A stretch of 36,680 bases of DNA from Pseudomonadota bacterium (GTDB lineage: Bacteria; Myxococcota_A; UBA9160; PR03): contig QEVM01000026.1 of assembly GCA_003576805.1 (NCBI GenBank), positions 1 through 36,680 of the forward strand, written 5' to 3'. Position 1 is the stretch's first letter. Each line of letters opens with the position of its first letter. Positions 14,841-28,490 of this stretch are shown here, one piece after another. The notes under the pieces were generated by a model. That model saw nothing but the letters and a program-made list of their open reading frames with translations, was not told the DNA's origin and searched no databases. Both the position numbers and the translations under genes were made by a program.

Positions 14841-15263
14841 CTAGCGCTCACCGAGCGCAGCGCGCAGCGCGCTTCGCACGCGCGCGACATCGACGAGCGG
14901 ATCGCGCCGCAGCCGCGCCACCTCCTCCGCGGTGTAGGGCGCGTGCGACGCCGGGATCGCCGCCGCGTCGAAGCGGCGCAGCGTCCACTCGAGTAGCGCT
15001 GCGAGGTCGGCGTCCGAGAGCGGCGCGCTCGCGACGCCCGGCACGCGCACCAGGAACTCGCGCCCGCCCGGCACGCGCAGGAAGTGCGCGACCGATCCCG
15101 CGAGCGGCGGCACCTTCCCCGGCGTCTCGCTGCCGTCGGCGAGGTGGCAACCCTGGCAGTGCAGCGCGTAGTGCGTCGCGGCGTCCCAGGCGTACGCGGC
15201 CGGCGCGGCCGCGAGCGAGAGCGCGACCGCGAGGAGCCGCACGGCCGCGCGTGCGACGCTCAC
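14841..15263 (-). CDS. Monoheme c-type cytochrome of the amine dehydrogenase operon
   Basis: This is a 140-residue periplasmic protein. A GTG start at 15263 overlaps the mauA stop as GTGA, so translation is coupled. The signal peptide (residues about 1-25, ending AAPAAYA) is followed by one c-heme motif CQGCH at 36-40. After it come a cytochrome-like helix (SDADLAALLEWTLRRFD) and a charged tail (TAEEVARLRRDPLVDVARVRSALRAAL). The mature protein contains no methionine, so the sixth iron ligand cannot be the usual Met; a His such as that in SVAHFLRV is possible. Its position after mauA suggests it accepts electrons from the TTQ enzyme, the role amicyanin or cytochromes play in other mau/aau systems. 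That role is inferred. Confidence 0.85.
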   Translation of the reverse strand: MSVARAAVRLLAVALSLAAAPAAYAWDAATHYALHCQGCHLADGSETPGKVPPLAGSVAHFLRVPGGREFLVRVPGVASAPLSDADLAALLEWTLRRFDAAAIPASHAPYTAEEVARLRRDPLVDVARVRSALRAALGER

Positions 15264-15799
15264 TTGCCGTCGGTGGCGACGCCGAGCACGAGCGCGACGG
15301 TCGAGCTGTACGCGGTGGTCGGCGTGCCCATGCACCAGTTGATGTCGTTGGCCTTGCCGGGCTGGTAGACGGGCCGGTCGTCCTCGTTGCGATTGCAGAA
15401 GCAGCGCCCGCAGTACGTGCTGCCGCAGCAGTCGTTGTACGAGATCAGGTAGTCCTTGCCGTCCACCGGATTGCGGCAGGTCCCGATCCACGTGACGGTC
15501 GACATCTGCGTGCCGGGCGGGCACGAGGTGTGCGTGCCGCCGCAGCACGCCGACAGAAAGCCGTCGACCGCGCAGTAGCGCCAGTAGTCGCAGCTCGCGG
15601 GATCGCCGCTCTCGGGGGCGGACGGCGCGCGCGACGGCTGCGCCGCGGCGCGCGCGACGGGCAGCAGCGGCAACGCGGCCGCGCCGAAGAGGGCGGCGCC
15701 GATGCGGCCGAGGAAGCCGCGCCGCGACGTCGTACGCGCGAGCCGCCGCGACGCCGTCTCGAGCCAGCCGTCGACGTCGCCGCCGTTGCGCTGCGCCAT
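15260..15799 (-). CDS. mauA: Amine dehydrogenase small (TTQ-bearing) subunit
   Basis: This is a 179-residue precursor of the catalytic beta subunit of a methylamine/aralkylamine dehydrogenase. A long leader has a twin-arginine motif (SRRGFLGRIGAAL, residues 25-37), so it is exported folded. Trp104 (VTWIGTC) and Trp155 (NDINWC) are 51 residues apart, exactly as the two tryptophans that form TTQ in the Paracoccus enzyme. Asp79 (CAVDG) and Asp123 (YNDCC) match the active-site aspartates. There are 12 Cys for six disulfides, but one pair is relocated compared with Paracoccus. The start ATG overlaps the mauD stop by one base. Methylamine versus aromatic amine preference cannot be decided. MauG, needed for TTQ in methylamine dehydrogenase, is not in this window. 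Confidence 0.94.
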   Translation of the reverse strand: MAQRNGGDVDGWLETASRRLARTTSRRGFLGRIGAALFGAAALPLLPVARAAAQPSRAPSAPESGDPASCDYWRYCAVDGFLSACCGGTHTSCPPGTQMSTVTWIGTCRNPVDGKDYLISYNDCCGSTYCGRCFCNRNEDDRPVYQPGKANDINWCMGTPTTAYSSTVALVLGVATDGK

Positions 15800-16404
15800 C
15801 ACGCCGCTCCCTTCTCCGCGCGCTCGCGGGCAAGATACTCCTGGATCGACGCCACGCCCTGCGCCTTCGCCTCGAGCAGGCTCTCGAGATGCTCGCGCGT
15901 GTTGACGAGGCCCTGCGCGCGCACGACGCCGTCCGCGTCGATCAGCACCGCCCACGGCAGCTTGCCGACGCGGTACGAGAGACCGAGCGGCGTCGAGAGC
16001 AGATACGGCAGCGCGATGCCTTCGCGCGCCGCGAAGGCTTCGTGCTCCTGGCGCGCGCCGTCGCTCGCCAGCACGACGCGCAGCGACGCCCCGCGCGCGA
16101 GCGCGGCGAGCACCGGCAGCAGCGCCTTGCACACCGGGCAGCTCGGCGAGAGGAAGAAGAGCAGCGTGTCGCGGCCGTCCGCAACGGGCGCGCCGACCAC
16201 GTGCGCCGCGCCGGCGAGGTCGTCCGCCTCGACGACCGGCGCCGGCTCGCCGACGCGCGGGCCGGTCTGGATCGCGAGCGCGCCGGCGGGCCGCACGCGC
16301 TCGTGCAGCACGCCGATCTGGCGCACCAGCGCGACCACCACGGCGCCGAGCGCGAGCACTGCGATCCACAGCAGCACGTTCGAGACGAGCAGCGCCTCGG
16401 TCAC
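15799..16404 (-). CDS. mauD: MauD-like thioredoxin-fold maturation protein
   Basis: This is a 201-residue protein with an N-terminal membrane anchor (ALLVSNVLLWIAVLALGAVVVALV, about residues 4-27) and a periplasmic thioredoxin fold. The redox motif is CPVC in FLSPSCPVCKALLPVLAAL, and the cis-proline region is LPWAVLIDADGVV. MauD is needed for stable small subunit, presumably by forming or sorting its six disulfides. The GTG start (16404) overlaps the mauE stop as GTGA, and its own stop overlaps mauA by one base, so mauE, mauD and mauA are translationally coupled. The disulfide role is known for the family, not shown here. Confidence 0.87.
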   Translation of the reverse strand: MTEALLVSNVLLWIAVLALGAVVVALVRQIGVLHERVRPAGALAIQTGPRVGEPAPVVEADDLAGAAHVVGAPVADGRDTLLFFLSPSCPVCKALLPVLAALARGASLRVVLASDGARQEHEAFAAREGIALPYLLSTPLGLSYRVGKLPWAVLIDADGVVRAQGLVNTREHLESLLEAKAQGVASIQEYLARERAEKGAA

Positions 16405-16949
16405 ACGTCCTCCTGCATGCGCGCGAGCGCTGCCGCGTGCGCGAGCAGCCCGTGCACGGCGGTCCAAATGAGCGCGAGCGCCGCGACGCCGCCGGCGATC
16501 GTGAGCGCGTCGACGAGACCGAGCGCGCGCTGCGCCACGCCGGCGAGACAGGCGAGCGCCATCGCGACGAGGATCGCGTTGCGCGCGAGCAGCCAGCCGG
16601 AGAGCGGCACGTGCGCGGCGGGCCCGCCGCAGCCGCAGTCGATCTCGCGCCGACCGCGCGCGAGGTTGATCGCGATCGCGGCGGCGTAGAGCGCGAACAG
16701 CGCGGCCGCGAGCGCGAGCGCGCCGGGCCGCAGGCCGAAGCGCGCCGGCGCCAGCAGCGCGGCGCCGAGCGCGCCTTCGAGCGCCGCGAAGAGCGCCGCC
16801 GCGACGCCCGCGAGCCTGGCCGGCAGCAGCTCGTAGCCCTCCACCGCCGCGCGGAAGAGCGCGAAGTCGCGCGCCTTCTGCACGGCGCCGCTGGCCAGCA
16901 GCAGCGCGAGCGATCCGCGCAGCACGTGCTCGAGGGCGGGGTCCAGCAC
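16401..16949 (-). CDS. mauE: MauE-like membrane protein for amine dehydrogenase maturation
   Basis: This is a 182-residue inner-membrane protein with about four to five helices (for example LRGSLALLLASGAVQK, LAGVAAALFAALEGALGAALL, ALALAAALFALYAAAIAINLARG, ALTIAGGVAALALIWTAVHGLL). The motif REIDCGCGG after helix 3 is the conserved Cys-containing segment of MauE/DoxX-like proteins and probably exchanges disulfides with MauD. The GTG start at 16949 lies 9 bases after the large-subunit stop with only a weak ribosome binding site, and the stop is coupled to mauD. MauE is required for small-subunit accumulation in other methylotrophs. Confidence 0.85.
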   Translation of the reverse strand: MLDPALEHVLRGSLALLLASGAVQKARDFALFRAAVEGYELLPARLAGVAAALFAALEGALGAALLAPARFGLRPGALALAAALFALYAAAIAINLARGRREIDCGCGGPAAHVPLSGWLLARNAILVAMALACLAGVAQRALGLVDALTIAGGVAALALIWTAVHGLLAHAAALARMQEDV

Positions 16950-16957
16950 GGCGGCGC

Positions 16958-18178
16958 CTACGGGAGCTGGAGCAGCGACAGCGCGATCCCGATCTCCCGC
17001 ACGTCGCGCAGGTGCGCGCCGCTGCGGGCGTCGTAGACAGCGAGCGTGCTCGGGAAGCCGGAGGCGGCGAAGAGCAGCGGCGCGTCGTCCTGGGTCACCG
17101 CGATGCGCTCCATGCCGTCGTTGGGCAGCGCGCGCTGGAGCAGCCAGTCGAGCGCGCCGCCCGGCTCGATCTTCGCCTGCTCGGCGACGAACGCGGCGGC
17201 GGGTCCGCGCAGCGCGATGCGCTGCACGCGCTCGCGCGTGGCGACGTCGAACACCCAGACCTCCGTGCCCGGCGCCTTGTGCGCGCCCTGCTCCGCCTGG
17301 TTCATCAGCGCGTAGAGCCGGCCGCTCGGCGCGTGCAGCGCGAGGTTCTGCATGCCGCCCGTGCGCCAGCCGGCGTCCGCGTCGGCGACGAGGCGCCACG
17401 TCTCGCCGAAGCGGACGGCGTCGCCGGAGACGTCCACCGGGTGCACGACGCCCGCGAACGACACGAACAGCCACTCGCCGCCGCGCCGCACGGGCTTGTC
17501 CATCACCGGGTCGGCCTGCGCGTCGAAGAAGCGCGCGGTGCGGACCTTCGACGCCTCCGCGCCGCGCTCGTCGAGCGTGACGACGAGCGCCGTGCCGTCC
17601 CCGCACAGCGACAGGAAGCGGCGCGGCCCGGCGGCGTAGACGAGCGCGCAGCCGGGCGTGTCGATCTCGCCGGCGAAGCGGCGCTCCGCGACGTCGACGA
17701 TGCTGAGCGAGGTCGCGGGATTCATGTTCGCGACGGCGGCGAAGCGGCCGTCGTCGGAGAGCGCGGAGCCGCCGACCCACGACGTGTGCTCGCCGCGCTT
17801 GGGCGGGATCTCGACCTCGGCGACGGGCTGGAGCGTCACGGCGTCGCGCACGCTCACGAGATCGGTGCGCGCGCCGCGCGTGCCGCGCGCGTAGTGCGTC
17901 TCGGCGAGATAGATCTCGCGGCCGTCGGGCGAACGCAGCGGCGCGATGATGCCGACGCCGCCCGGGATCTGGCCGAGGAACGCGCCGGTGCCGCCGTCCA
18001 CGATCGCGGCGCGTCGCAGCAGGATGTCGCCGACCCAGAGCCAGTGCGGTCCGGGCTGCGCCGGCAACGTCTCGACCTGCCCGAGCGAGTCGGCTGCCCG
18101 ACTCGCGAGCGGCAGCAGCGCCGCGGCGGCGAGCGCCGTCGCGAGCAGTCGCCTCGGGAACGCGCCGGCCTTGCGCAT
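16958..18178 (-). CDS. mauB: Amine dehydrogenase large subunit
   Basis: This is a 406-residue precursor. A Sec-type signal (RKAGAFPRRLLATALAAAALLPLASRAAD) precedes a seven-bladed beta-propeller. Characteristic amine-dehydrogenase heavy-chain stretches include HWLWVGDILLRRAAIVDGGTG, IAPLRSPDGREIYLAETHYARGTRGARTD, PPKRGEHTSWVGGSALSDDGRF and the C-terminal LFAASGFPSTLAVYDARSG. It forms the alpha subunit of the alpha2-beta2 TTQ enzyme in the periplasm and shapes the substrate channel. It heads the operon mauB-E-D-A-cytochrome. It is divergent from the HAMP-only gene with 91 bases between starts; no clear promoter or ribosome binding site could be assigned. AauB (aralkylamine dehydrogenase) is an equally possible label. 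Confidence 0.9.
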   Translation of the reverse strand: MRKAGAFPRRLLATALAAAALLPLASRAADSLGQVETLPAQPGPHWLWVGDILLRRAAIVDGGTGAFLGQIPGGVGIIAPLRSPDGREIYLAETHYARGTRGARTDLVSVRDAVTLQPVAEVEIPPKRGEHTSWVGGSALSDDGRFAAVANMNPATSLSIVDVAERRFAGEIDTPGCALVYAAGPRRFLSLCGDGTALVVTLDERGAEASKVRTARFFDAQADPVMDKPVRRGGEWLFVSFAGVVHPVDVSGDAVRFGETWRLVADADAGWRTGGMQNLALHAPSGRLYALMNQAEQGAHKAPGTEVWVFDVATRERVQRIALRGPAAAFVAEQAKIEPGGALDWLLQRALPNDGMERIAVTQDDAPLLFAASGFPSTLAVYDARSGAHLRDVREIGIALSLLQLP

Positions 18179-18957: not shown

Positions 18958-19860
18958 CTACGGCAGGTCGCCGCGCCGGAAGCGCCACCAGCCGAAGGCG
19001 GCGACGGCGGCGCCGAGCCCCGTCGGGTACGCGATGGCGTAGACGAGATATCCCGTCTTGCCGAAGGCGTCGAAGAGCACGAACGCCGCGGGCCCGAGCA
19101 GCACCAGGTCGGGATCGAAGAGCATCAGCGCCGCCGTGCGGAACACCTGCAGCGGATTGGCGAGCGCGATCCCGACCACCGTCTCCGCCGGCACGTGCTC
19201 CTGGATCAGCACGCCGAGCAGGATCAGGTCGAGGAACAGGATCAGCACGAGCCAGAGCGCGAACGCGGCGCCCTGCGCGACGTCCACCGAGCGCGCCACC
19301 GCCGAGATCCCCATCGCGAGGCCGAGGAAGCACGCAGAGAGCGCCGCGAGCAGCGCGGCGTACAGGCCGAACATCGCCCACGGCACCTCGATCTGCTGGA
19401 ACGCCGCCCACGCCGCGGCGGCGCCCATCGCGAACAGCGCCGGCAGGTACACGACCGCGAAGCGCCCGAGCATGCGGCCCCAGAACCAGGCGCCCAGGCC
19501 GACGGGGAGCGAGAGCAGGTACTCGAAGACGCCCGCCTCGCGGTCGCCCGCGACCGAGCGCACGGTCGTCACCAGCACGAAGATCGGCAGGATCGCCATG
19601 CAGAGCTGGATGTAGGTGACGAGCAGGCGCGAGAGGCCCATGAAGCCGAGGATGCGCGACTCGGTGAGGCCGAACACGAAGAGCAGCGCGACGATGCCGC
19701 CGAAGAGCAGCGCGTAGACGCTGAACCAGCGCGCGCGCAGCGACTCGCCGATGTCGAGCCGCGCGACCATCCAGAGCTGGCGCAGCGCGCCGTGCCGGCG
19801 CGGCGCCTCGGCGGCCGCCGCGCCGGCGGCGAGCCGCGATTCGAGCGCGTCATCGACCAT
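18958..19860 (-). CDS. nosY: NosY ABC transporter permease
   Basis: This is a 300-residue membrane protein with six hydrophobic helices, including WFSVYALLFGGIVALLFVFG, LLVTYIQLCMAILPIFVLVTTVRSVAGDREAGVFEYLLSLPVG (the permease coupling motif region), and ALWLVLILFLDLILLGVLI. NosY forms the transmembrane part of the NosDFY complex that supplies copper or sulfur for the CuZ centre of NosZ. The ATG start at 19860 overlaps the nosL stop by 11 bases. It is the last nos gene, after nosL; in many clusters nosY precedes nosL. Confidence 0.9.
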   Translation of the reverse strand: MVDDALESRLAAGAAAAEAPRRHGALRQLWMVARLDIGESLRARWFSVYALLFGGIVALLFVFGLTESRILGFMGLSRLLVTYIQLCMAILPIFVLVTTVRSVAGDREAGVFEYLLSLPVGLGAWFWGRMLGRFAVVYLPALFAMGAAAAWAAFQQIEVPWAMFGLYAALLAALSACFLGLAMGISAVARSVDVAQGAAFALWLVLILFLDLILLGVLIQEHVPAETVVGIALANPLQVFRTAALMLFDPDLVLLGPAAFVLFDAFGKTGYLVYAIAYPTGLGAAVAAFGWWRFRRGDLP

Positions 19861-20308
19861 GCGCGTCGCGCTCCCGCTGGTGTTCGAGGATCGCGCGGCG
19901 CGCGGCGTCGAAGTCCGCCGTATCCGGCCCCGCGCGCGCGACCGCCGCCCAGCCGTACGCCATCGGCGTGCGCTGGTCGCTGCGGAAGTGCGCGCGCCGC
20001 GCGTCGAGCCACGACTCGCGCTGCGCATCCGACGACTGCGAGTCCATCGCCCAGATCTCCTGCGCGGCCTCGAGGCCGCCGTGCGCCTCGAGCCACAGCA
20101 CCGCGCAGCCGAAGTCGTCGAAGCGCGCGACGTCGCGCGGGCCGGTGCGGATCTGCGCGGCGTAACGCGGATCGCTGATCGCCATCGCGCACTGATCGCA
20201 GGCGTGACGGCCGAAGACGACGCGCGCCGGGCCGCTCGTCGGCTCCGAGCACGCGAGCGCGCCGAGCAGCGCGGCGATCGCGGCGGCGAGAAGGTGCGCG
20301 CGCTTCAC
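19850..20308 (-). CDS. nosL: NosL copper-binding lipoprotein
   Basis: This is a 152-residue lipoprotein. The signal ends in a lipobox with Cys20 (LLGALACSEP), a substrate for LspA. The mature part starts with the copper-site motif HACDQCAMAISDPRYAAQI (Cys37, Cys40, Met42), followed by FDDFGCAVLWLEAHGG and, near the C-terminus, TPMAYGWAAVA. NosL is a Cu(I) chaperone that hands copper to NosD/apo-NosZ. The GTG start at 20308 overlaps the nosF stop as GTGA. Confidence 0.92.
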   Translation of the reverse strand: MKRAHLLAAAIAALLGALACSEPTSGPARVVFGRHACDQCAMAISDPRYAAQIRTGPRDVARFDDFGCAVLWLEAHGGLEAAQEIWAMDSQSSDAQRESWLDARRAHFRSDQRTPMAYGWAAVARAGPDTADFDAARRAILEHQRERDAHGR

Positions 20309-21162
20309 GAGCGGCGCTCCTCTTCGAGCGCGAGCACCCGGAGCTGCCCCGCGTAGCGCGCGATCGCGCCGAGGAAGCGCAGCCGGTCGGGCCCCGCGAT
20401 CGCGCCCTCGAAGACGCGGCCGTCGCCGCTCGCCGCGAAGCCCCAGCTCGCGAGCGCGCCGGCCGCCGCGGGCGACGGCTGCACCAGCTCGACGCGGCAG
20501 CGCAGCACGGCGTCGAGCGCGGCCGTACCGGCGACGCGGTCGTCGAGCACGACCTTGCCGCGATCGAGCTCGATCACGCGCGAGACGAGCTGCGCCACCT
20601 CGTCGATGCGATGGCTCGAGATCAGCATCGTCGCGTGCGGCCGCTCGGCGAGCAGCGCGAAGAAGGCGCGGCGCGCCTGCGGATCGAGGTTCGCGGCGGG
20701 CTCGTCGAGCACGAGCAGGTCGCAGGCGCGCCCGAGCGCGATCGCGATCAAGAGCTTCTGCTTCTGGCCGCCCGAGAGCTTGCCGAACGGGCGCTTCCAC
20801 AGCGCGCGCGCGTCGAGCCCGAGCCGCGTCGCGACGGCCTCCATCGGACCGGTGCGCTCGCCGCACACCGCCGCCGCGAACGCGAGCAGCCCGCCGACCG
20901 GCATGCGCAGCGGCGGCGGGAGCTGCGGCACGAAGCCGGTGCGGCGCAGCACCTCCGTGCGCGCGCCGCGCGGCTCGCGGCCGCCGACCGCGAGCCGGCC
21001 TTCGTAGGTGTACTCGCCGAGCAGGCAGCGGATCAGCGTGGTCTTGCCGGCGCCGTTGGCGCCGACGAGCGCGACGCGCTCGCCGTCCTCGACGGCGAGG
21101 TCGAGCGCGTCGAGCACGCGCGTGCGCTGGAAGCTCTTGGTGAGCGCTTCGGCCCGGATCAT
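20305..21162 (-). CDS. nosF: NosF ABC transporter ATPase
   Basis: This is a 285-residue cytoplasmic ATPase. Walker A is GANGAGKT (34-41), the signature is LSGGQKQ (129-135), Walker B is LLVLDEP (149-155), and the switch His is in ISSHRIDEVA. It powers the NosDFY complex used for NosZ maturation. The ATG at 21162 has a GGAGAGG ribosome binding site and lies 8 bases after nosH. The C-terminal about 80 residues (VELVQPSPAAAGALASWGF and onward) form a small extra domain typical of NosF. It is coupled to nosL downstream. Confidence 0.95.
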   Translation of the reverse strand: MIRAEALTKSFQRTRVLDALDLAVEDGERVALVGANGAGKTTLIRCLLGEYTYEGRLAVGGREPRGARTEVLRRTGFVPQLPPPLRMPVGGLLAFAAAVCGERTGPMEAVATRLGLDARALWKRPFGKLSGGQKQKLLIAIALGRACDLLVLDEPAANLDPQARRAFFALLAERPHATMLISSHRIDEVAQLVSRVIELDRGKVVLDDRVAGTAALDAVLRCRVELVQPSPAAAGALASWGFAASGDGRVFEGAIAGPDRLRFLGAIARYAGQLRVLALEEERRS

Positions 21163-21170
21163 CGCCTCTC

Positions 21171-22136
21171 CTACAGCAGCCGCTTGACGCCCTTCAGCTC
21201 GTAGCGCAGCGCGCCGGTCGGGCAGACGTCGACGCACAGGCCGCAGCGCGTGCAGTCCGGCCCGACGTCGAGCTTGGTCTCCTCCGCGCGGCCCTTGATG
21301 GTGAGATCGAGCACGTGCGGCACCTCGCAGACCTTGCGGCACTCGCCCTCGTGGGCGCACGACTCCAGATCGTAGGTCACGCGGATCGGCGCCTTCGCGC
21401 CGAGCACGCCGTAGGTGAGCCCGATCGGGCAGACGTAGCGGCACCACGCGCGGCGCGCGTAGACCACCTCGAAAGCCAGCAGCAGCGCCACCCAGAGCAG
21501 CGCCAGGCTCGCGCCGTAGACGACGGCGCGCGAGAGCACGCCGATCGGGTTCAGCGCGAGGAAGAGCGTGTGCCCCGTCAGCAGGGCGAGCGCCGCGAAG
21601 CCGATCCAGAACGCGACGCGCACGCCGCGGTGCAGCGGGTGGTCGCGCACCCAGCCGCGCTTCGCGAGCGCGAGGTGCAGCATCTCCGCCCACTCGGCGA
21701 CGAGGTGGTACGGGCACACCCAAGCGCAGAAGCTGCGCCCGCCGACGAAAGCCCACACCAGCGTCACGGTCACCGCGCCGATCACGAGGTTCACCGCGAC
21801 GTGTCGCTGCGCGAGCATGACGAGGAAGCTCGAGTAGACGTCGGCGAGGTGGAAGCCGAGCAGCCGCGAGGCCGTCAGCGATCCCTCGAGGATCTGGATG
21901 TCGACCCAGTACGAGAGGGTGAAGAGCAGGTTGATGCCGATCAGCGCGGCCCAGCGCCGGTTGCGCCACGTGTGGTTGGCGGCGGCCTCGTCGATCTCCG
22001 CCTGCAGCTCGTGCTTCTTCATGCCCTTGCCGCGCTTGGCGGCGTGCATGGCCGCCGCCTCGGGCGACGGCGCCCGCTTCTCGGGCGCGCGGCCGAGCAC
22101 GATGGCGAGCTGGTCGAGCAGGCGCGGCATCCCCAT
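21171..22136 (-). CDS. nosH: NosH-like membrane iron-sulfur protein (NapH family)
   Basis: This is a 321-residue inner-membrane protein. A cytoplasmic N-terminus of about 60 residues precedes four to five helices. The two CxxxCP motifs of the NapH/NosR family are at 137-142 (CAWVCP) and 232-237 (CRYVCP). The C-terminal domain carries Cys-rich motifs for [4Fe-4S] clusters: CAHEGECRKVC at 260-270 and CTRCGLCVDVCP at 295-306. With NosG it is thought to form a quinol dehydrogenase-type path that delivers electrons to periplasmic cytochromes for NosZ in clade II systems lacking NosR. The ATG overlaps the nosG stop by one base. Confidence 0.9.
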   Translation of the reverse strand: MGMPRLLDQLAIVLGRAPEKRAPSPEAAAMHAAKRGKGMKKHELQAEIDEAAANHTWRNRRWAALIGINLLFTLSYWVDIQILEGSLTASRLLGFHLADVYSSFLVMLAQRHVAVNLVIGAVTVTLVWAFVGGRSFCAWVCPYHLVAEWAEMLHLALAKRGWVRDHPLHRGVRVAFWIGFAALALLTGHTLFLALNPIGVLSRAVVYGASLALLWVALLLAFEVVYARRAWCRYVCPIGLTYGVLGAKAPIRVTYDLESCAHEGECRKVCEVPHVLDLTIKGRAEETKLDVGPDCTRCGLCVDVCPTGALRYELKGVKRLL

Positions 22137-23008
22137 CACGACGACTCCTCGCCGTGCTCGCCGCGCTCGCCGCGGCCGCCGCGGTGCTTGCGGTGCCGGC
22201 CGCCCGCGAAGACGGCGCGCGCGTCCACCACGATCGCGGCCGGCTCGGCGGGGCAGATCATCTGGCACACGCCGCAGCCGGTGCAGCCGCGGTGCACCTC
22301 CGGCGTGAAGAGCCCCGGCGCGCCGCCGTCCTCGGGCGGAAGCGGCACGAGCCGCAGCGCGCTCTCGCCGATCGGACACTCGAGCACGCACAGATCGCAG
22401 ACGGCGCGGTCGTAGCCGTGCGTCGCGACGGGCATCGGCGTCCAGCGGTCGACGTCCTCGTAGCGCAGCAGTCCCGGGAAGTCGGGGCCGCGCGCGGTGC
22501 CGCGCAGCGGCTCGCCGCGGCGCGCGAGGCACGCCTCCGGCCGCGCCAGCCGCGCGACGCCCATGCGCACCTCTTCCTTCATCTTGAGCTCGTGCGAGAG
22601 CGCGCCGGTCGGACAGGCGAGGATGCACGAGAGCGCGTCGCACGAGAAGTCGCACGCCTGGCTGCGCGCGTCGACGTAGGGCACGCCGACGCCGAGGCCT
22701 TCGTCCGCGTCGGCGAGCACGATCGCCTGCACGGGACACACCTGCACGCACTGGCCGCACTTGATGCACGCGGCGAGGAAGCGCTCCTCGTCGAGCGCGC
22801 CGGGCGGGCGCAGGCGGTCGCGCAGCCGGCGCACGATCGGGATCGCGGCGAGCGGCTGCAGCGCGAACAGCACCGCCGCGGCGAGCGCTCCGCGCAGAAT
22901 CGTGCGCCGCTGCTCCTGCTGCCGCGAGAGGCGCGGCCGCGTGGGCCGGGTCCGCTTCGCGGGCTCCGCGGCGGGCGCCTCCGGCTCCGGCTGCTGCGCG
23001 TCGCTCAT
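22136..23008 (-). CDS. nosG: NosG-like periplasmic ferredoxin (NapG family)
   Basis: This is a 290-residue protein. A long basic and proline-rich N-terminus leads into a possible twin-arginine leader (EQRRTILRGALAAAVLFALQPLAAIP, residues 32-57), as in NapG. Four cluster motifs follow: CIKCGQCVQVCP (81-92), CDFSCDALSCILACP, CDLCVLECP and CTGCGVCQMICP, enough for four [4Fe-4S] clusters. It pairs with NosH in electron transfer to NosZ. A basic, Gly/His-rich tail (GGRHRKHRGGRGERGEHGEESS) is unusual. The ATG overlaps the nosD stop (ATGA), and its stop overlaps the nosH ATG. Confidence 0.9.
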   Translation of the reverse strand: MSDAQQPEPEAPAAEPAKRTRPTRPRLSRQQEQRRTILRGALAAAVLFALQPLAAIPIVRRLRDRLRPPGALDEERFLAACIKCGQCVQVCPVQAIVLADADEGLGVGVPYVDARSQACDFSCDALSCILACPTGALSHELKMKEEVRMGVARLARPEACLARRGEPLRGTARGPDFPGLLRYEDVDRWTPMPVATHGYDRAVCDLCVLECPIGESALRLVPLPPEDGGAPGLFTPEVHRGCTGCGVCQMICPAEPAAIVVDARAVFAGGRHRKHRGGRGERGEHGEESS

Positions 23009-24297
23009 GACCGATCTCCCGCCGCGCGCGGCGCGCGCGCCTCGAAGCGCGGCGCGTCGAAGCGCGGTGCGTCGTCGCGCAGGATCACGGTGGGCGACGA
23101 GAAGGGCGCGAGCCGGTCCAGGAAGTCGATCACCTCGAGCAGCGGCGAGGCGCGGAAGAAAGCGGCGGGCGGCGACTCCATCCAGATGCGATCGGCGTAC
23201 GAGCGCAGCTCGTACGGCGTGTCGCCGGTGCCGTCGCGGTCGCGGTCGAAGCCCTGGTAGTCGTCCCAGTGGTTGCCGGACCAGCGATTGCGCAGCGCGG
23301 CGCCGCCGCCGCGCACGGCCACCTGCGTGAAGTTGCCGAGGAACACGTTGTCCACGAACTCGTTTCCGTACCAGTCGTTGTGGAACAGCACGCCGACGCC
23401 GTTCCAGGCGAAGCGGTTGCGGGCGAAGCGGATCGTCGTGTCGGGCTCGTAGGGCGAGACGTCGAGCAGCACGCCGGTCGCGCAGTAGACGATGTCGTTG
23501 TCCTCGAGCACGATCGCGCTCGACTCCTTGAAGCCGATGCCGACGCCCGTCGCGCCCTGCGCGCCGAGGATGCGGTTGCGGCGCAGCTCGACGCCGTCGC
23601 TGTACATGAGGAAGACGCCGGTCATGTTGTGGCGGAGGTCGTTGTCCTCGACGCGGTTGTGGTGCGCGTACATGGTGTGGAGCGCGTAGCGGCCGCGCTC
23701 GATGCGGTTGCGCGCGATCAGGTTGTCGGCCGAGTACCAGACGACGACGTCGCGCGTGTCGCTGATCTCGTTGTCGGTGATCGAGTTGCGGAAGCTGTAC
23801 CAGAGCCGGATGGCGTCGCCGCGCAGCGCCGTCGAGCGCGACTTCGAGTGGATGCGGCTCTCGCGCACGACGTTGTCGTTCGCCTGCGCGAGATCGATCC
23901 CGAAGAGGCAGTCCTCGATCGAGACGTGCTCGACCACGTTGCCCGTCCCGGCGATCGCGATGCCGGCGTCGACGTCGTCGTGGTTCGAGCCCGAGCCGGT
24001 GATGGTGATGCCGCGCACGCGCGCGCCGGCCGTCTCGATCCGCAATACCGTGCCCCGGCCTTCTCCAGAGATCGTCGCCGCGCCCCCGCCGTCAAGGGTG
24101 ATCGGGCGGCGCAGCACGACCGGACCCGCCCAGCTTCCGGGCGGGATGCGCAGCTCGCCGCCCGCCGGCGTCGCGTCGACCAGGGGCTGGAGCGGTCGCA
24201 ACGCCGCGACCGGACCCTCCGCGACGTTCGCGATCCCCGCCGCCGCCAGCACGCAGGCGGCCGCGATCGCGAGGCCGCTGCGTGCCGCGGCGTTCAT
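23005..24297 (-). CDS. nosD: NosD periplasmic beta-helix copper maturation protein
   Basis: This is a 430-residue exported protein with a signal peptide (about residues 1-27) and a right-handed parallel beta-helix of CASH-type repeats. Typical segments are DAIRLWYSFRNSITDNEISDTRDVVVWYSADNLIARNRI, YALHTMYAHHNRVEDNDLRHNMTGVFLMYSDGVELRRNRI and VGVLFHNDWYGNEFVDNVF; these also match conserved NosD stretches such as MY....V and NHWDDYQGFD.D.DG.GD.PY. It is the periplasmic part of NosDFY and binds NosL to insert copper into NosZ. The ATG overlaps the upstream nosB-like stop (ATGA). A repeated C-terminal sequence (DAPRFDAPRFEARAPRA) is not part of the usual fold. Confidence 0.95.
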   Translation of the reverse strand: MNAAARSGLAIAAACVLAAAGIANVAEGPVAALRPLQPLVDATPAGGELRIPPGSWAGPVVLRRPITLDGGGAATISGEGRGTVLRIETAGARVRGITITGSGSNHDDVDAGIAIAGTGNVVEHVSIEDCLFGIDLAQANDNVVRESRIHSKSRSTALRGDAIRLWYSFRNSITDNEISDTRDVVVWYSADNLIARNRIERGRYALHTMYAHHNRVEDNDLRHNMTGVFLMYSDGVELRRNRILGAQGATGVGIGFKESSAIVLEDNDIVYCATGVLLDVSPYEPDTTIRFARNRFAWNGVGVLFHNDWYGNEFVDNVFLGNFTQVAVRGGGAALRNRWSGNHWDDYQGFDRDRDGTGDTPYELRSYADRIWMESPPAAFFRASPLLEVIDFLDRLAPFSSPTVILRDDAPRFDAPRFEARAPRAAGDRS

Positions 24298-24986
24298 GCG
24301 CGGGCCTGCCGGAGCGCGGCCGGCGCGGCTTGCGAGACCTCGAGCTCCTTGCGGCGGCGCAGCAGCGCGAGCGCGAGGCACGCGGACGCGGCGACCGACA
24401 GCGCGAACCCGTAGTGCGGATACGAGTAGGTGCTGAACTGCGCCACCTTGCCCTCTCCGAGCACGGTGGGCATGAACGGCTTCACCGTGAAGGCGGCCCA
24501 TTCGTTCAGGTTGTGTCCGAACCAGTAGAGCCAGCCGGAGAAGTCCACGAGGAAGCCGAGCGGCAGCGCGATCGCGGGCAGCCACAGCAGCCACCAGAGC
24601 GGCCCGGCGTAGAAGAGGCCCGCGATCACCAGCGCGCCGAACCCGAGGAACAGCCACGGCGCGGCGGCGAGCTCGAGGCGGGCGCCGCGCTCGATCGGGT
24701 GCATCCCGATGTAGTGGTTGATGACGTTCATCTCCTCGACGCAGTCGAGCGGCTCTTCCTCGGCGATCTCCTCGCGCTCGCGCTGCTGCACGCCGCACCC
24801 GTTCGCGACGCGGTCCCAGTGCAGGACGATGCGCACGCCGTCGGGATACATGTGCTCCGGGTAGTTGGGCGCCGTCAGCGACACCCACCACATCGGCGCG
24901 AAGAAGGAGGCCGCCATCAGCGCGAGGCCGACGGCCGCGAGGCCGAGGACGGCCCCCGATCGTCCCGCGTTCGCTGCGCCGGGCAT
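24294..24986 (-). CDS. nosB: NosB-like membrane protein of clade II nos clusters
   Basis: This is a 230-residue protein with about five helices (GAVLGLAAVGLALMAASFFAPMWW, then LAAAPWLFLGFGALVIAGLFY, PLWWLLWLPAIALPLGFLVDFSGWLYWFG, and YGFALSVAASACLALALL). The segment MNVINHYIGMHPIERG and two Cys in the first extracytoplasmic loop (ANGCGVQ, LDCVEE) are notable. A membrane protein of this kind is a hallmark of clade II (atypical) nos clusters and is called NosB; its function is not known. Here it stands between the cytochromes and nosD, not directly after nosZ. Assignment rests on context, length and topology. Confidence 0.65.
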   Translation of the reverse strand: MPGAANAGRSGAVLGLAAVGLALMAASFFAPMWWVSLTAPNYPEHMYPDGVRIVLHWDRVANGCGVQQREREEIAEEEPLDCVEEMNVINHYIGMHPIERGARLELAAAPWLFLGFGALVIAGLFYAGPLWWLLWLPAIALPLGFLVDFSGWLYWFGHNLNEWAAFTVKPFMPTVLGEGKVAQFSTYSYPHYGFALSVAASACLALALLRRRKELEVSQAAPAALRQARA

Positions 24987-24987
24987 G

Positions 24988-25710
24988 TCAGCCTCCGCCG
25001 GCCTTGGAGCGCGCGGGCCACGACAGCCGCGACATGTAGTCCACGACGGCCTGCAGCTCCTCGTCCTTGTAGTCCTTGACGACCTTCACCATGTCGGGGT
25101 TCGCGTTGCGGCGGCGCAGGCCCGCGATGTCGCGGATCTGGCGCAGCATGTACTCGTAGTGCTGGCCCGCGAGCACGGGGTAGAACTTCGCCGCGTCGCC
25201 CTCGCCCTGCTTGCCGTGGCACTGCACGCAGTCGCGCGCGTAGAGCTGCTCGCCGCGCTCGAGGTCCGTGCCCGGGCCCTTGCCGTTGCCGGGCGGGATC
25301 GGGAGCTTCTCCAGATAGGCGGAGACGTCGGCGAGCTCCTGCGGGTCGACCAGCGTCGTCGCGAACGGGTACATGATCGGGTTGTCGCGGCGGCCGGCGC
25401 GGATGTCCGCGATCTGCTTGATCAGCACGCTGGCGTGCTGCCCGGCGAGCTGCGGGAAGGTGCCGTCGGGGCGGCCCGAGCCGTTCGGGAGATGGCACGC
25501 CGAGCACACCTCGTAGGCGGCCTCGCCGTTCGCCGGGTCGCCCTTCAGATGGAGCGCCTCGACCTTCTCGCCTTCCATCTCGTTCCACTTGTAGTCCTTG
25601 GACTCGATGCCGCTCGCCTTGGGCGCGGGCTGCGCAACCGCGGGCTGCGCGGCGGCGAACGCGCCGGCGACGCCGGCCGCGAATGCGAGAGTGCGAATCA
25701 GAGAACGCAT
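24988..25710 (-). CDS. Diheme c-type cytochrome of the nos operon
   Basis: This is a 240-residue periplasmic protein with a signal peptide (ending AQPAVAQP) and two class I cytochrome domains. The first heme motif is CSACH in YEVCSACHLPNGSGRPDG, and the second is CVQCH in YARDCVQCHGKQGEGDAAKFY. Each is followed by the cytochrome c553-like pattern PQLAGQHASVLIKQI..IRAGRRDN or PVLAGQHYEYMLRQIRDIAGLRRRNANPDM. This is a NosC-like electron carrier between NosG/H or quinol oxidation and the CuA site of NosZ. It ends one base before the nosB-like ATG. The ribosome binding site is AGGAAAGGAAA. Confidence 0.9.
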   Translation of the reverse strand: MRSLIRTLAFAAGVAGAFAAAQPAVAQPAPKASGIESKDYKWNEMEGEKVEALHLKGDPANGEAAYEVCSACHLPNGSGRPDGTFPQLAGQHASVLIKQIADIRAGRRDNPIMYPFATTLVDPQELADVSAYLEKLPIPPGNGKGPGTDLERGEQLYARDCVQCHGKQGEGDAAKFYPVLAGQHYEYMLRQIRDIAGLRRRNANPDMVKVVKDYKDEELQAVVDYMSRLSWPARSKAGGG

Positions 25711-25744
25711 GTCGTCGTTTCCTTTCCTGTCGATGTCGGCGCGG

Positions 25745-26083
25745 CTACGGCAGCGCCGCGAGCCAGTCCGCGATCAGCTTCAGCTCCTCGTCGTTCACGA
25801 GGTGCATCACGCCCTTCATCGCGGCGGTGTTGGCGTTGTCGCGCGCGCCGCTCTGGATGTCCTTCGCCTGCTGCAGCAGGTACTCCGCGTTCTGCCCGGC
25901 CAGCTTCGGATAGCTGGGGAGGATCGGCGTCTTCGCGTCCGGTCCATGGCAGGCGATGCAGGTCTTGGTCTTGTAGAGCTCTTCGCCCGTGGCGGCGCGA
26001 CCCGTCGCGGGCGCGAGCGCGGCGAGCAGCAGCGCGGCCGCTGCGGCGCCTCGCGCTGCGCGTCTGGAAATGGCGGCCTTCAT
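25745..26083 (-). CDS. Monoheme c-type cytochrome of the nos operon
   Basis: This is a 112-residue protein. ATG 26083 has an AAGGAG ribosome binding site. The signal peptide (ending ATGRAATG) is followed by a small class I cytochrome with CIACH, the PILPSYPKLAGQNAEYLLQQ core, the probable distal Met in AAMKGVMHLVNDEEL, and a C-terminal helix. It lies right after nosZ and probably hands electrons to CuA (NosC-type role). A strong hairpin separates it from nosZ. Confidence 0.9.
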   Translation of the reverse strand: MKAAISRRAARGAAAAALLLAALAPATGRAATGEELYKTKTCIACHGPDAKTPILPSYPKLAGQNAEYLLQQAKDIQSGARDNANTAAMKGVMHLVNDEELKLIADWLAALP

Positions 26084-26103
26084 GTCGAGTCTCCTTGCGA
26101 GAA

Positions 26104-26134
26104 GCGCCCGGCGAGCCAGCGGCTCGCCGGGCGC
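26104..26134 (-). terminator. Strong intercistronic hairpin after nosZ
   Basis: A perfect 14-base stem (GCGCCCGGCGAGCC / GGCTCGCCGGGCGC) with an AGC loop lies between the nosZ stop (26149) and the next gene. On the minus strand it is followed by TTCTCG rather than a T-run, so it may be a partial terminator or an mRNA-stabilising element that raises nosZ over the downstream genes. Confidence 0.6.
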
Positions 26135-26148
26135 CGCTCCGCACTGGC

Positions 26149-28446
26149 CTAGTTGCCCGGCGTCGCGCCGGTCTGGTCGAGCCGCGTCTTGGCGCGCAGG
26201 CCGATGTCCGCGGCCTTCACCTGGTACTGGTAGACCTGGTTCGCCCACAGCATGGCGTCGCTCCAGTTGCCCGCCGCGGCGGCGGCCTCGGCCTTCTGCT
26301 TCGCCTCCGGAACCTTGCCGAGCTGGTCCGTCGCGTCGTCCATCAGCGACGACACCATCGGGTCGTTCTTGTACGGGCGCGCCGTGACGTACGCGACCAC
26401 CTCGTCGATCACCTTCTGCGTGTCCGCGTTCTGCTGGATCTGCTTCTCGTAGTCGGCCTGCGTGTACTGCGTGCCGGCCTTCGCGGTGACCGCCGTCGGC
26501 TTGTAGCCGGTCGGCTTCACGAGCAGGTAGCCCTGCATCTCGAGGTGCAGCGCCGAGCAGAACTCGGTGCAGTAGTACGGGAACACGCCCGGCTGGTCGG
26601 CGGTGAACTTGAAGGTCGCCGTCTTGCCCGGCTCGAGCGACCCGTTCACGTTGTACTTGCCGATCGTGAAGCCGTGGGTCTGGTCCTCGGCGCGCTCCAG
26701 GTTGGTCAGGTGGATGGTGATCTCGTCGCCCTGGTCCACCTCGATGATCTCCGGCGTGATGTGCGAGCGGATCTCGGTGCCGAACACCGTGACCTTCTTG
26801 CCCTCCTTCACGATCTTCTCCTCGCCCGGACGCGTCTTGCCGGGCGAAATCTCGTCGGTGCGGCTGTTGGTGCCGGCCGGGTAGCGGATGATCGGCTTGA
26901 GCAGCGTCGCGTCGATCGCCACCACGTAGTGCGGCTCGCCGAGCGGGACCGGCATGTCGTAGAGCATCTGCATCTTGTCGTTCGACACGTCGATCAGCTG
27001 GTGGTTCTGCGGGTGCAGCGGGCCGACCGGGTTGAAGCGGTCGATCGCGAGCTTGTTCAGCGCCACGACGTACTTGCCGCGCGGCTTCACGGTGTCGCCG
27101 TGCATCGCCATGATGTGGCCGATGTTGTAGTGCACCGGGATGCGGTCGATCAGCTTGCCGTTGACGTAGTCCCACTTCGCGACCATCGAGTCCACGTACA
27201 GCGACGTGTACGCGATGCCGGGCCGCGAGTCGTACTGCGTGTGGAGCGGGCCGAGGCCGAGCGGCACCTGGGTGTGCAGCGCGTCCTCGAGCGCGATGAT
27301 CGGCAGCCCGTAGTCGTCCTTGCCGGTGAACTTCTTGGCGGCGATCGCGGCCTGGATCTTCTCGAAGCTGTAGACCCAGGTGTGGGTGTCGAGCTTGCCC
27401 GAGACCGTGATGTACTTGCCGTCGGGCGTGACGTCGACGCCGTGCGGGCTCTTCGGCTCGGGGACGAGGTAGACGACGCCTTCGGCGGCCGAGACGTCCA
27501 TCATCAGCACGGAGAAGCCGTTCACCTTCTTGGCGCGGCCCGCCGCGACCAGCTCCGCCGCCTTCCTCCAGTTGACGACGTGCAGGTAGTCGGTGTCCTT
27601 CGCGGAGCAGCCCGCCTCGAAGGGCGGGCGGCCGCGCTCGATGCCGCCGACGTAGCGCTCCGAGCAGAACGAGTTGGTGAACGACCAGCCGTCGCTGCCG
27701 AGCTTGCCGAAGTCGGAGAGATCCTGGCTGTAGGGGGGCAGCTCGACCGCGAACGAGCCCGACGGGTCGATGCGGCCGCGCGTGCGGTCGAACTTCCAGT
27801 ACGTGACGCCGCCGCGGTACTTGTCGTTGAACTCCTCGAGCGGCGCGTAGCTGCCGCCGAGCGGCGCGGCGTACTGCACGGCCTCCATGATCCAGTCGGT
27901 GTTCTGCGACACGAACGCGCCGCCGTGCTCCGACTGGAACACCGGGTTCACCACGATCTGCTTGGTCTCGAAGTCGCGCAGGTCGATCACCGCGATGCGC
28001 GGGTTCGCCTTGTCGTTGATGAAGAGGAACTGGCCGTCGTAGTCGCCGTTGGTCTCGGAGAGCGCGGGGTGATGGGTGTCGCCCCACGTGATGTCCCGGC
28101 CGTTCATGCGGCCCTGGTTCAGGACGGCCTTCGACTCCTCGTCGTAGCCGTACGCCTGCCACGGCTCCGGCGTGAAGACCGCGATGTACTTCAGGATCCG
28201 CATCGACGGGATCCCGTACACGATCACCTGCCCGCTCTGGCCGCCGGACGAGAACGCCAGGAACTCGTCGCGCTTGCCGCTGGGCACGTACGTCTTCGCG
28301 GCCGCCATCAGGTCTTCCTGCGTGAGCTGCCGCCGCTTCATGACGTCCTGGAGCGATTCCGCCGCGCCAGCCGTGTGAGCCATCGAAGCGATCGCGATCG
28401 CAGCGGTGAAGCCGCGGATCCACCGCCGGTTGCCGTTGTGCGCCAT
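26149..28446 (-). CDS. nosZ: Nitrous oxide reductase, clade II type
   Basis: This is a 765-residue periplasmic copper enzyme that reduces N2O to N2. ATG 28446 has a GGGAGG ribosome binding site. The leader (NRRWIRGFTAAIAIASMAHTAGAAE) lacks a strict Tat motif, as in Sec-type clade II enzymes. The propeller carries CuZ His segments: DTHHPALSETNGDYDG (His125, His126), HGGAF (174), SPHGVDV (335), LGLGPLHTQYD, NIGHIMAMHGDT, and EPHY (506). The C-terminal cupredoxin has the CuA site: His591 (DQTHGF), Cys626, Cys630, His634 and Met637 in CTEFCSALHLEM. About 125 residues of mostly helical sequence follow CuA. The gene leads the nos operon. Confidence 0.97.
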   Translation of the reverse strand: MAHNGNRRWIRGFTAAIAIASMAHTAGAAESLQDVMKRRQLTQEDLMAAAKTYVPSGKRDEFLAFSSGGQSGQVIVYGIPSMRILKYIAVFTPEPWQAYGYDEESKAVLNQGRMNGRDITWGDTHHPALSETNGDYDGQFLFINDKANPRIAVIDLRDFETKQIVVNPVFQSEHGGAFVSQNTDWIMEAVQYAAPLGGSYAPLEEFNDKYRGGVTYWKFDRTRGRIDPSGSFAVELPPYSQDLSDFGKLGSDGWSFTNSFCSERYVGGIERGRPPFEAGCSAKDTDYLHVVNWRKAAELVAAGRAKKVNGFSVLMMDVSAAEGVVYLVPEPKSPHGVDVTPDGKYITVSGKLDTHTWVYSFEKIQAAIAAKKFTGKDDYGLPIIALEDALHTQVPLGLGPLHTQYDSRPGIAYTSLYVDSMVAKWDYVNGKLIDRIPVHYNIGHIMAMHGDTVKPRGKYVVALNKLAIDRFNPVGPLHPQNHQLIDVSNDKMQMLYDMPVPLGEPHYVVAIDATLLKPIIRYPAGTNSRTDEISPGKTRPGEEKIVKEGKKVTVFGTEIRSHITPEIIEVDQGDEITIHLTNLERAEDQTHGFTIGKYNVNGSLEPGKTATFKFTADQPGVFPYYCTEFCSALHLEMQGYLLVKPTGYKPTAVTAKAGTQYTQADYEKQIQQNADTQKVIDEVVAYVTARPYKNDPMVSSLMDDATDQLGKVPEAKQKAEAAAAAGNWSDAMLWANQVYQYQVKAADIGLRAKTRLDQTGATPGN

Positions 28447-28474
28447 GACTGCCTCCCTCTGGCCGGGGAGGGAT

Positions 28475-28490
28475 TGCAAAGGCCGAGCCC
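28475..28490 (-). promoter_or_regulatory. Possible sigma-54 type promoter before nosZ
   Basis: On the minus strand this reads GGGCTCGGCCTTTGCA. The -12 half (TTGCA) is perfect and the GG-N10-GC spacing is correct; the -24 half matches TGGCACG at 5 of 7 bases. Transcription would begin near 28463, 17 bases before the nosZ ATG and just ahead of the GGGAGG ribosome binding site. The match is imperfect and could be chance in GC-rich DNA. Confidence 0.35.

Follow-up and report, generated by a model that had tools for sequence, protein, structure and literature searches.

Does the amine dehydrogenase light chain encoded in the window (the whole stretch of DNA analysed, 36,680 nucleotides) carry a disulfide bridge that has moved? 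The MADH light chain is a standard case of a small six-disulfide protein with a self-derived cofactor and its own maturation proteins. Compared with Paracoccus MADH, the window light chain lacks one complete pair of cysteines and has another, which suggested a relocated, structurally swapped bridge to an earlier note. Comparison with the family gives another answer. The protein is an AADH-like TTQ light chain that very probably inherited seven disulfides and has since lost one; the 39-83 pair (MADH numbering) is part of this inheritance, and nothing was relocated.

The operon and its residue map

The amine dehydrogenase operon and the nitrous oxide reductase cluster next to it comprise the following features.

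14841..15263, minus strand: small mono-haem c-type cytochrome with CQGCH, directly downstream of the light chain, recognised from its translation
15260..15799, minus strand: aauA/mauA-like TTQ light chain, 179 aa, with a Tat leader and a mature part with 12 Cys
15799..16404, minus strand: mauD, thioredoxin-like, with CPVC; TIGR02661, above the NCBIfam cut-off
16401..16961 (outer limits approximate), minus strand: mauE with a CGCGG motif; PF07291 match at 16542-16934
16958..18178, minus strand: amine dehydrogenase heavy chain, PF06433
18958-28479, minus strand: nitrous oxide reductase cluster, immediately upstream of the amine dehydrogenase operon
23005-24891, minus strand: NosD of this cluster
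24988-25710, minus strand: cytochrome c of this cluster
26149-28479, minus strand: nos propeller protein with a cupredoxin domain, of this cluster
within 18958-28479, minus strand: ferredoxin proteins, ABC ATPase, permease and a NosL-like frame of this cluster

Transcription runs from the heavy chain through mauE, mauD and the light chain to the cytochrome c, which is the gene order of annotated aau clusters such as L190. The light chain is the single match to PF02975 (Me-amine-dh_L) in a profile search of the whole genome (1.8e-48), and its 164.8 bits pass the curated cut-off of 25. Its leader is of the Tat type (TTSRRGFLG). MauE of the window carries CxC, and MauD carries CPVC. The cytochrome at 14841..15263 has no family match in the profile search; its gene is kept in relatives, and it is the presumed electron acceptor of the amine dehydrogenase.

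Alignment with Paracoccus MADH and Alcaligenes AADH shows that the residue numbers of the earlier note were right. The offset of 47 that it had used holds up to residue 156 and falls to 45 at the C-terminus, with a two-residue gap. Ten MADH cysteines are also cysteines in the window light chain; C36 and C121 of MADH are S83 and S166, and S39 and S83 of MADH are C86 and C130. Both TTQ tryptophans (MADH W57 and W108) are kept as W104 and W155, and both active-site aspartates (MADH D32 and D76) as D79 and D123. The codons of interest are as follows.

15551..15553, minus strand: Ser83, at the position of the lost MADH Cys36, located by codon arithmetic
15302..15304, minus strand: Ser166, at the position of the lost MADH Cys121
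15542..15544, minus strand: Cys86, at the position of MADH Ser39, which is also Cys in AADH and in the majority of family members
15410..15412, minus strand: Cys130, at the position of MADH Ser83, which is also Cys in AADH and in the majority of family members
15488..15490, minus strand: TTQ Trp104 (MADH Trp57)
15335..15337, minus strand: TTQ Trp155 (MADH Trp108)
15299..15301, minus strand: Thr167 (MADH active-site Thr122), adjoining the lost Cys121

A misaligned C-terminal cysteine was considered and rejected, as the window and its relatives have the same number of residues, without gaps, between Tyr119 and the C-terminal Leu/Val-Gly. A possible one-residue slip (NCST-A to NSTVA) would still leave no cysteine at the C-terminal position. 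Chance is ruled out, since 25 distinct light chains from related genomes, that of the window among them, show the S/A36 and S121 pattern.

AauA: The AADH light chain of Alcaligenes faecalis (2AGL, 2AH1, 2H47) is 59% identical to the window light chain over 107 positions, and the cysteines at positions 39 and 83, the TTQ tryptophans and the aspartates are common to both. In contrast, AADH (2agl_D) has all 14 cysteines, and the window has 12, without the 36-121 pair. Other annotated aau light chains also differ in cysteine number (L190), and 14 cysteines are a typical, not a strict, feature of this group. AlphaFold models of L069 and the window light chain are of low confidence (pLDDT 66 and 61, respectively), were made from an alignment without sequences from plasmid records and served for fold matching only; they match AADH best (Foldseek).

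MauA: The Paracoccus light chain (2BBK, 3C75) is 49% identical to that of the window, with the TTQ residues and a Tat leader common to both. Five of the six Paracoccus MADH disulfide pairs are kept in the window. Paracoccus MADH keeps 36-121 and lacks 39-83, whereas the window shows the reverse. Against the MADH (amicyanin) small-subunit equivalog TIGR02659 the window light chain reaches 167.7 bits, below the cut-off of 196.85, and the heavy chain reaches 148.8 bits against the MADH heavy-chain equivalog, below its cut-off of 454.45. The light chain is followed by a cytochrome c gene and not, as in the MADH cluster, by an amicyanin (mauC) gene. No match in the genome reaches the MauG cut-off; as a correlate MauG is uninformative, with 0/14 genomes above cut-off. 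Apart from this one variation the amine dehydrogenase of the window is AADH-like and ordinary; it would be a periplasmic TTQ enzyme, akin to aromatic amine dehydrogenase, to which this light chain belongs.

Cysteine pairs across the family

The survey drew on genomes from the phylum of the window, on other bacteria and on plasmids. It gave 202 light-chain matches, of which 171 are distinct, and 173 rows with the two reference sequences; none was found in viral contigs. Six disulfides are stated for the beta subunit of MADH (PMC7876137), and the open-access literature on MauD, MauE or AADH disulfides added nothing useful to this statement. All 14 cysteines are present in 138/173 aligned rows, and the usual family light chain is taken as having seven disulfides.

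Among the 171 full-length rows, C36 and C121 are absent together in 25/25 cases, C23 and C88 in 4/4, C38 and C86 in 6/6, and C39 and C83 in 8/9, the exception being L059 with C39 and G83. Cross pairs have a Jaccard index of ≤0.40. The core six cysteines (29-61, 46-77, 78-109) are lost in 0/171. This co-loss agrees with the MADH pairings, which we take to be 23-88, 29-61, 36-121, 38-86, 46-77 and 78-109, and adds 39-83. Pairing is supported because the cysteines vanish in pairs, and the sequences support Cys86 and Cys130 of the window (positions 39 and 83) behaving as a bonded pair; the co-variation of these two residues across relatives, which the earlier note had named as a check, is found. 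With Ser/Ser replacing the pair at positions 36 and 121, six disulfides are presumably left in the window light chain, and from the MADH structure and the co-loss we infer that these pairs are bonded in the subunit.

A two-sequence comparison with Paracoccus MADH gives one pair lost and one gained, as would be expected if the window lineage had lost one bridge and gained a new one to yield a rewired TTQ subunit. This is very improbable, for C39 and C83 are present in AADH, in most rows of the survey, in all sampled nearest 14-Cys relatives and in L195, a MADH-type light chain of Indioceanicola from a cluster with mauF and mauJ that has all four cysteine positions. Since the relatives and L195 carry C39 and C83, the 39-83 pair pre-dates the loss of 36-121. 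Since AADH, most of the family and L195 carry both pairs, 39-83 is inherited and Paracoccus MADH is derived; so Paracoccus and Methylobacterium MADH lost C39-C83. That 14 cysteines are ancestral depends on a parsimony rooting in which the MADH group serves as the outgroup. The description of one complete pair lost and one gained therefore stands relative to Paracoccus MADH, but 'gained' is untrue relative to the family, and no bridge was relocated. The proposal of a distinct TTQ subfamily survives insofar as the 36-121 loss marks a distinct lineage or lineages.

Other departures from 14 cysteines occur in the family. Two plasmid-borne light chains (L190 from Pseudomonas aeruginosa and L194 from Haematobacter), L166 and L158 are of the AADH type and have lost 38-86 and/or 39-83 as pairs. 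Because all four keep the Tat leader and mauED, a light chain can do without these two pairs even where MauED is present. Only L065, L059, L068 and L069 have lost 23-88. The active-site Asp32 (MADH numbering) is replaced by Gly in six rows and by Asn or Ser in single rows.

Decay of a gene also starts with the loss of conserved residues, and one plasmid copy (L193:6001-6288, Sphaerotilus) appears to be decaying: this light chain is not annotated, its end is altered and it has no twin-arginine leader. It is hardly credible that the bridge-less light chain is likewise decaying or non-functional: its losses come in pairs, its active-site and TTQ residues are intact, its operon is complete, and its state is common to many genera. 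The dN/dS ratio is well below 1 in related pairs; L048 and L057, both bridge-less and of the window's genus, give dN 0.13 and dS 0.59.

History of the 36-121 loss

The inherited 14-Cys state having lost 36-121, the number of losses can be considered. The 25 sequences concerned, such as L033, L048 and L057, all belong to the window's class. Like the window, they lack the same bridge and have Thr122, and most have the heavy-mauE-mauD-light operon and a Tat leader. They differ at position 120, which is Asn in most and Ser in the window's genus. Four of them have further lost disulfides, the Tat leader and mauED, all of which the window kept.

Two losses are favoured over one. In the light and heavy chain trees 22 bridge-less rows form one clade (100/100), whereas L001, L048 and L057, which represent the window's genus, are placed with the 14-Cys L041, and a single origin is found in 5-12% of bootstrap trees. 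On the other side, a light-chain tree built without the variable cysteine columns places all 25 bridge-less rows together with one 14-Cys row, and a single clade of bridge-less rows is not rejected by the AU test (p=0.19). Separate losses, one in the genus of the window (YSST) and one in the 22-sequence clade (YNST), with a parallel S122T change, have a slightly better than even chance of being correct, and would refine the explanation by loss of an inherited bridge.

Thr122 is present in 25/25 bridge-less rows versus 21% elsewhere, with Ser in 79% of the rows that have the bridge. By the MADH numbering, the lost bridge would have linked the strand with active-site Thr122 to the residues that follow active-site Asp32. 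It is reasonable to suppose that Thr122 compensates for the absent bridge. TTQ formation and electron transfer to the cytochrome should persist without 36-121. The loss is part of a class-wide trend in which disulfides outside the core 29-61, 46-77 and 78-109 are removed.

Light chains with three to five disulfides and the proposed role of MauE and MauD

The bridge-less clade also contains light chains with fewer cysteines. In addition to 36-121, L065 (G290) lacks 23-88 and has five disulfides left; L059 (G255) lacks 23-88 and one side of 39-83 and has four left; L068 (G342) lacks 23-88 and 38-86 and has four left; and L069 (G094) lacks 23-88, 38-86 and 39-83 and has three left. W57, W108, D32, D76 and Thr122 are intact in all four, and their loci retain the heavy chain's own two cysteines and the downstream cytochrome. 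The heavy chain directly precedes the light chain in 4/4, with a four-base overlap in three. Within pairs of these light chains dN is 0.10-0.11 and dS 0.65-1.09.

Searches of the four genomes, which are draft metagenome assemblies with a completeness of 73-95%, gave no convincing match for mauE or mauD. The twin-arginine leader is present in 0/4, but in all remaining light chains of the survey that are complete and undecayed. The four light chains form two pairs, and one origin is rejected by the AU test (p=0.013), although this grouping was picked after earlier trees had been seen and comprises two events only. On balance, the class probably dropped mauE and mauD twice independently, exchanging Tat for a Sec-like leader and reaching three to five disulfides, while the TTQ residues, heavy chain and cytochrome were kept. 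In G332 the operon lacks mauED, both genes lie elsewhere in the genome, and the light chain keeps 12 Cys and Tat.

MauD and MauE have roles in disulfide formation. Together they would supply and sort disulfides in the cysteine-crowded light chain; with fewer cysteines, the general periplasmic machinery may suffice. Where a 14-Cys light chain is an orphan or has only the heavy chain beside it, mauD lies elsewhere in most of the genomes. The absence of mauD alone was rejected as a predictor of disulfide loss, as five of these genomes (G041, G182, G381, G1126, G1127) show no convincing mauD.

Two of these genomes have unusual loci. G381 has three heavy-light pairs (L078, L197, L198) whose light chains are 14-Cys or similar, with no mauE or mauD in the stretches examined and no mauD in the genome. 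In G041 the 18 kb examined around a 14-Cys light chain (L196, G041:C79:116000-134000) contain neither a heavy chain nor mauE or mauD, and no mauD was found in the genome.

For comparisons with a single reference, the survey provides a correction: it is Paracoccus MADH that departs from the family at positions 39 and 83. The disulfide-loss series, which ends in light chains that have also lost mauED and Tat, is the stronger result and lies outside the window. The window represents the mildest step in this natural deletion series (7, 6, 5, 4, 3 disulfides), along which the catalytic residues are kept. If the twofold loss of MauE and MauD is true, TTQ formation needs 29-61, 46-77 and 78-109 only, and the need for MauED depends on disulfide load. 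The series makes it testable which disulfides are required for TTQ formation, what purpose MauE and MauD serve, and why the light chain is usually exported by Tat.
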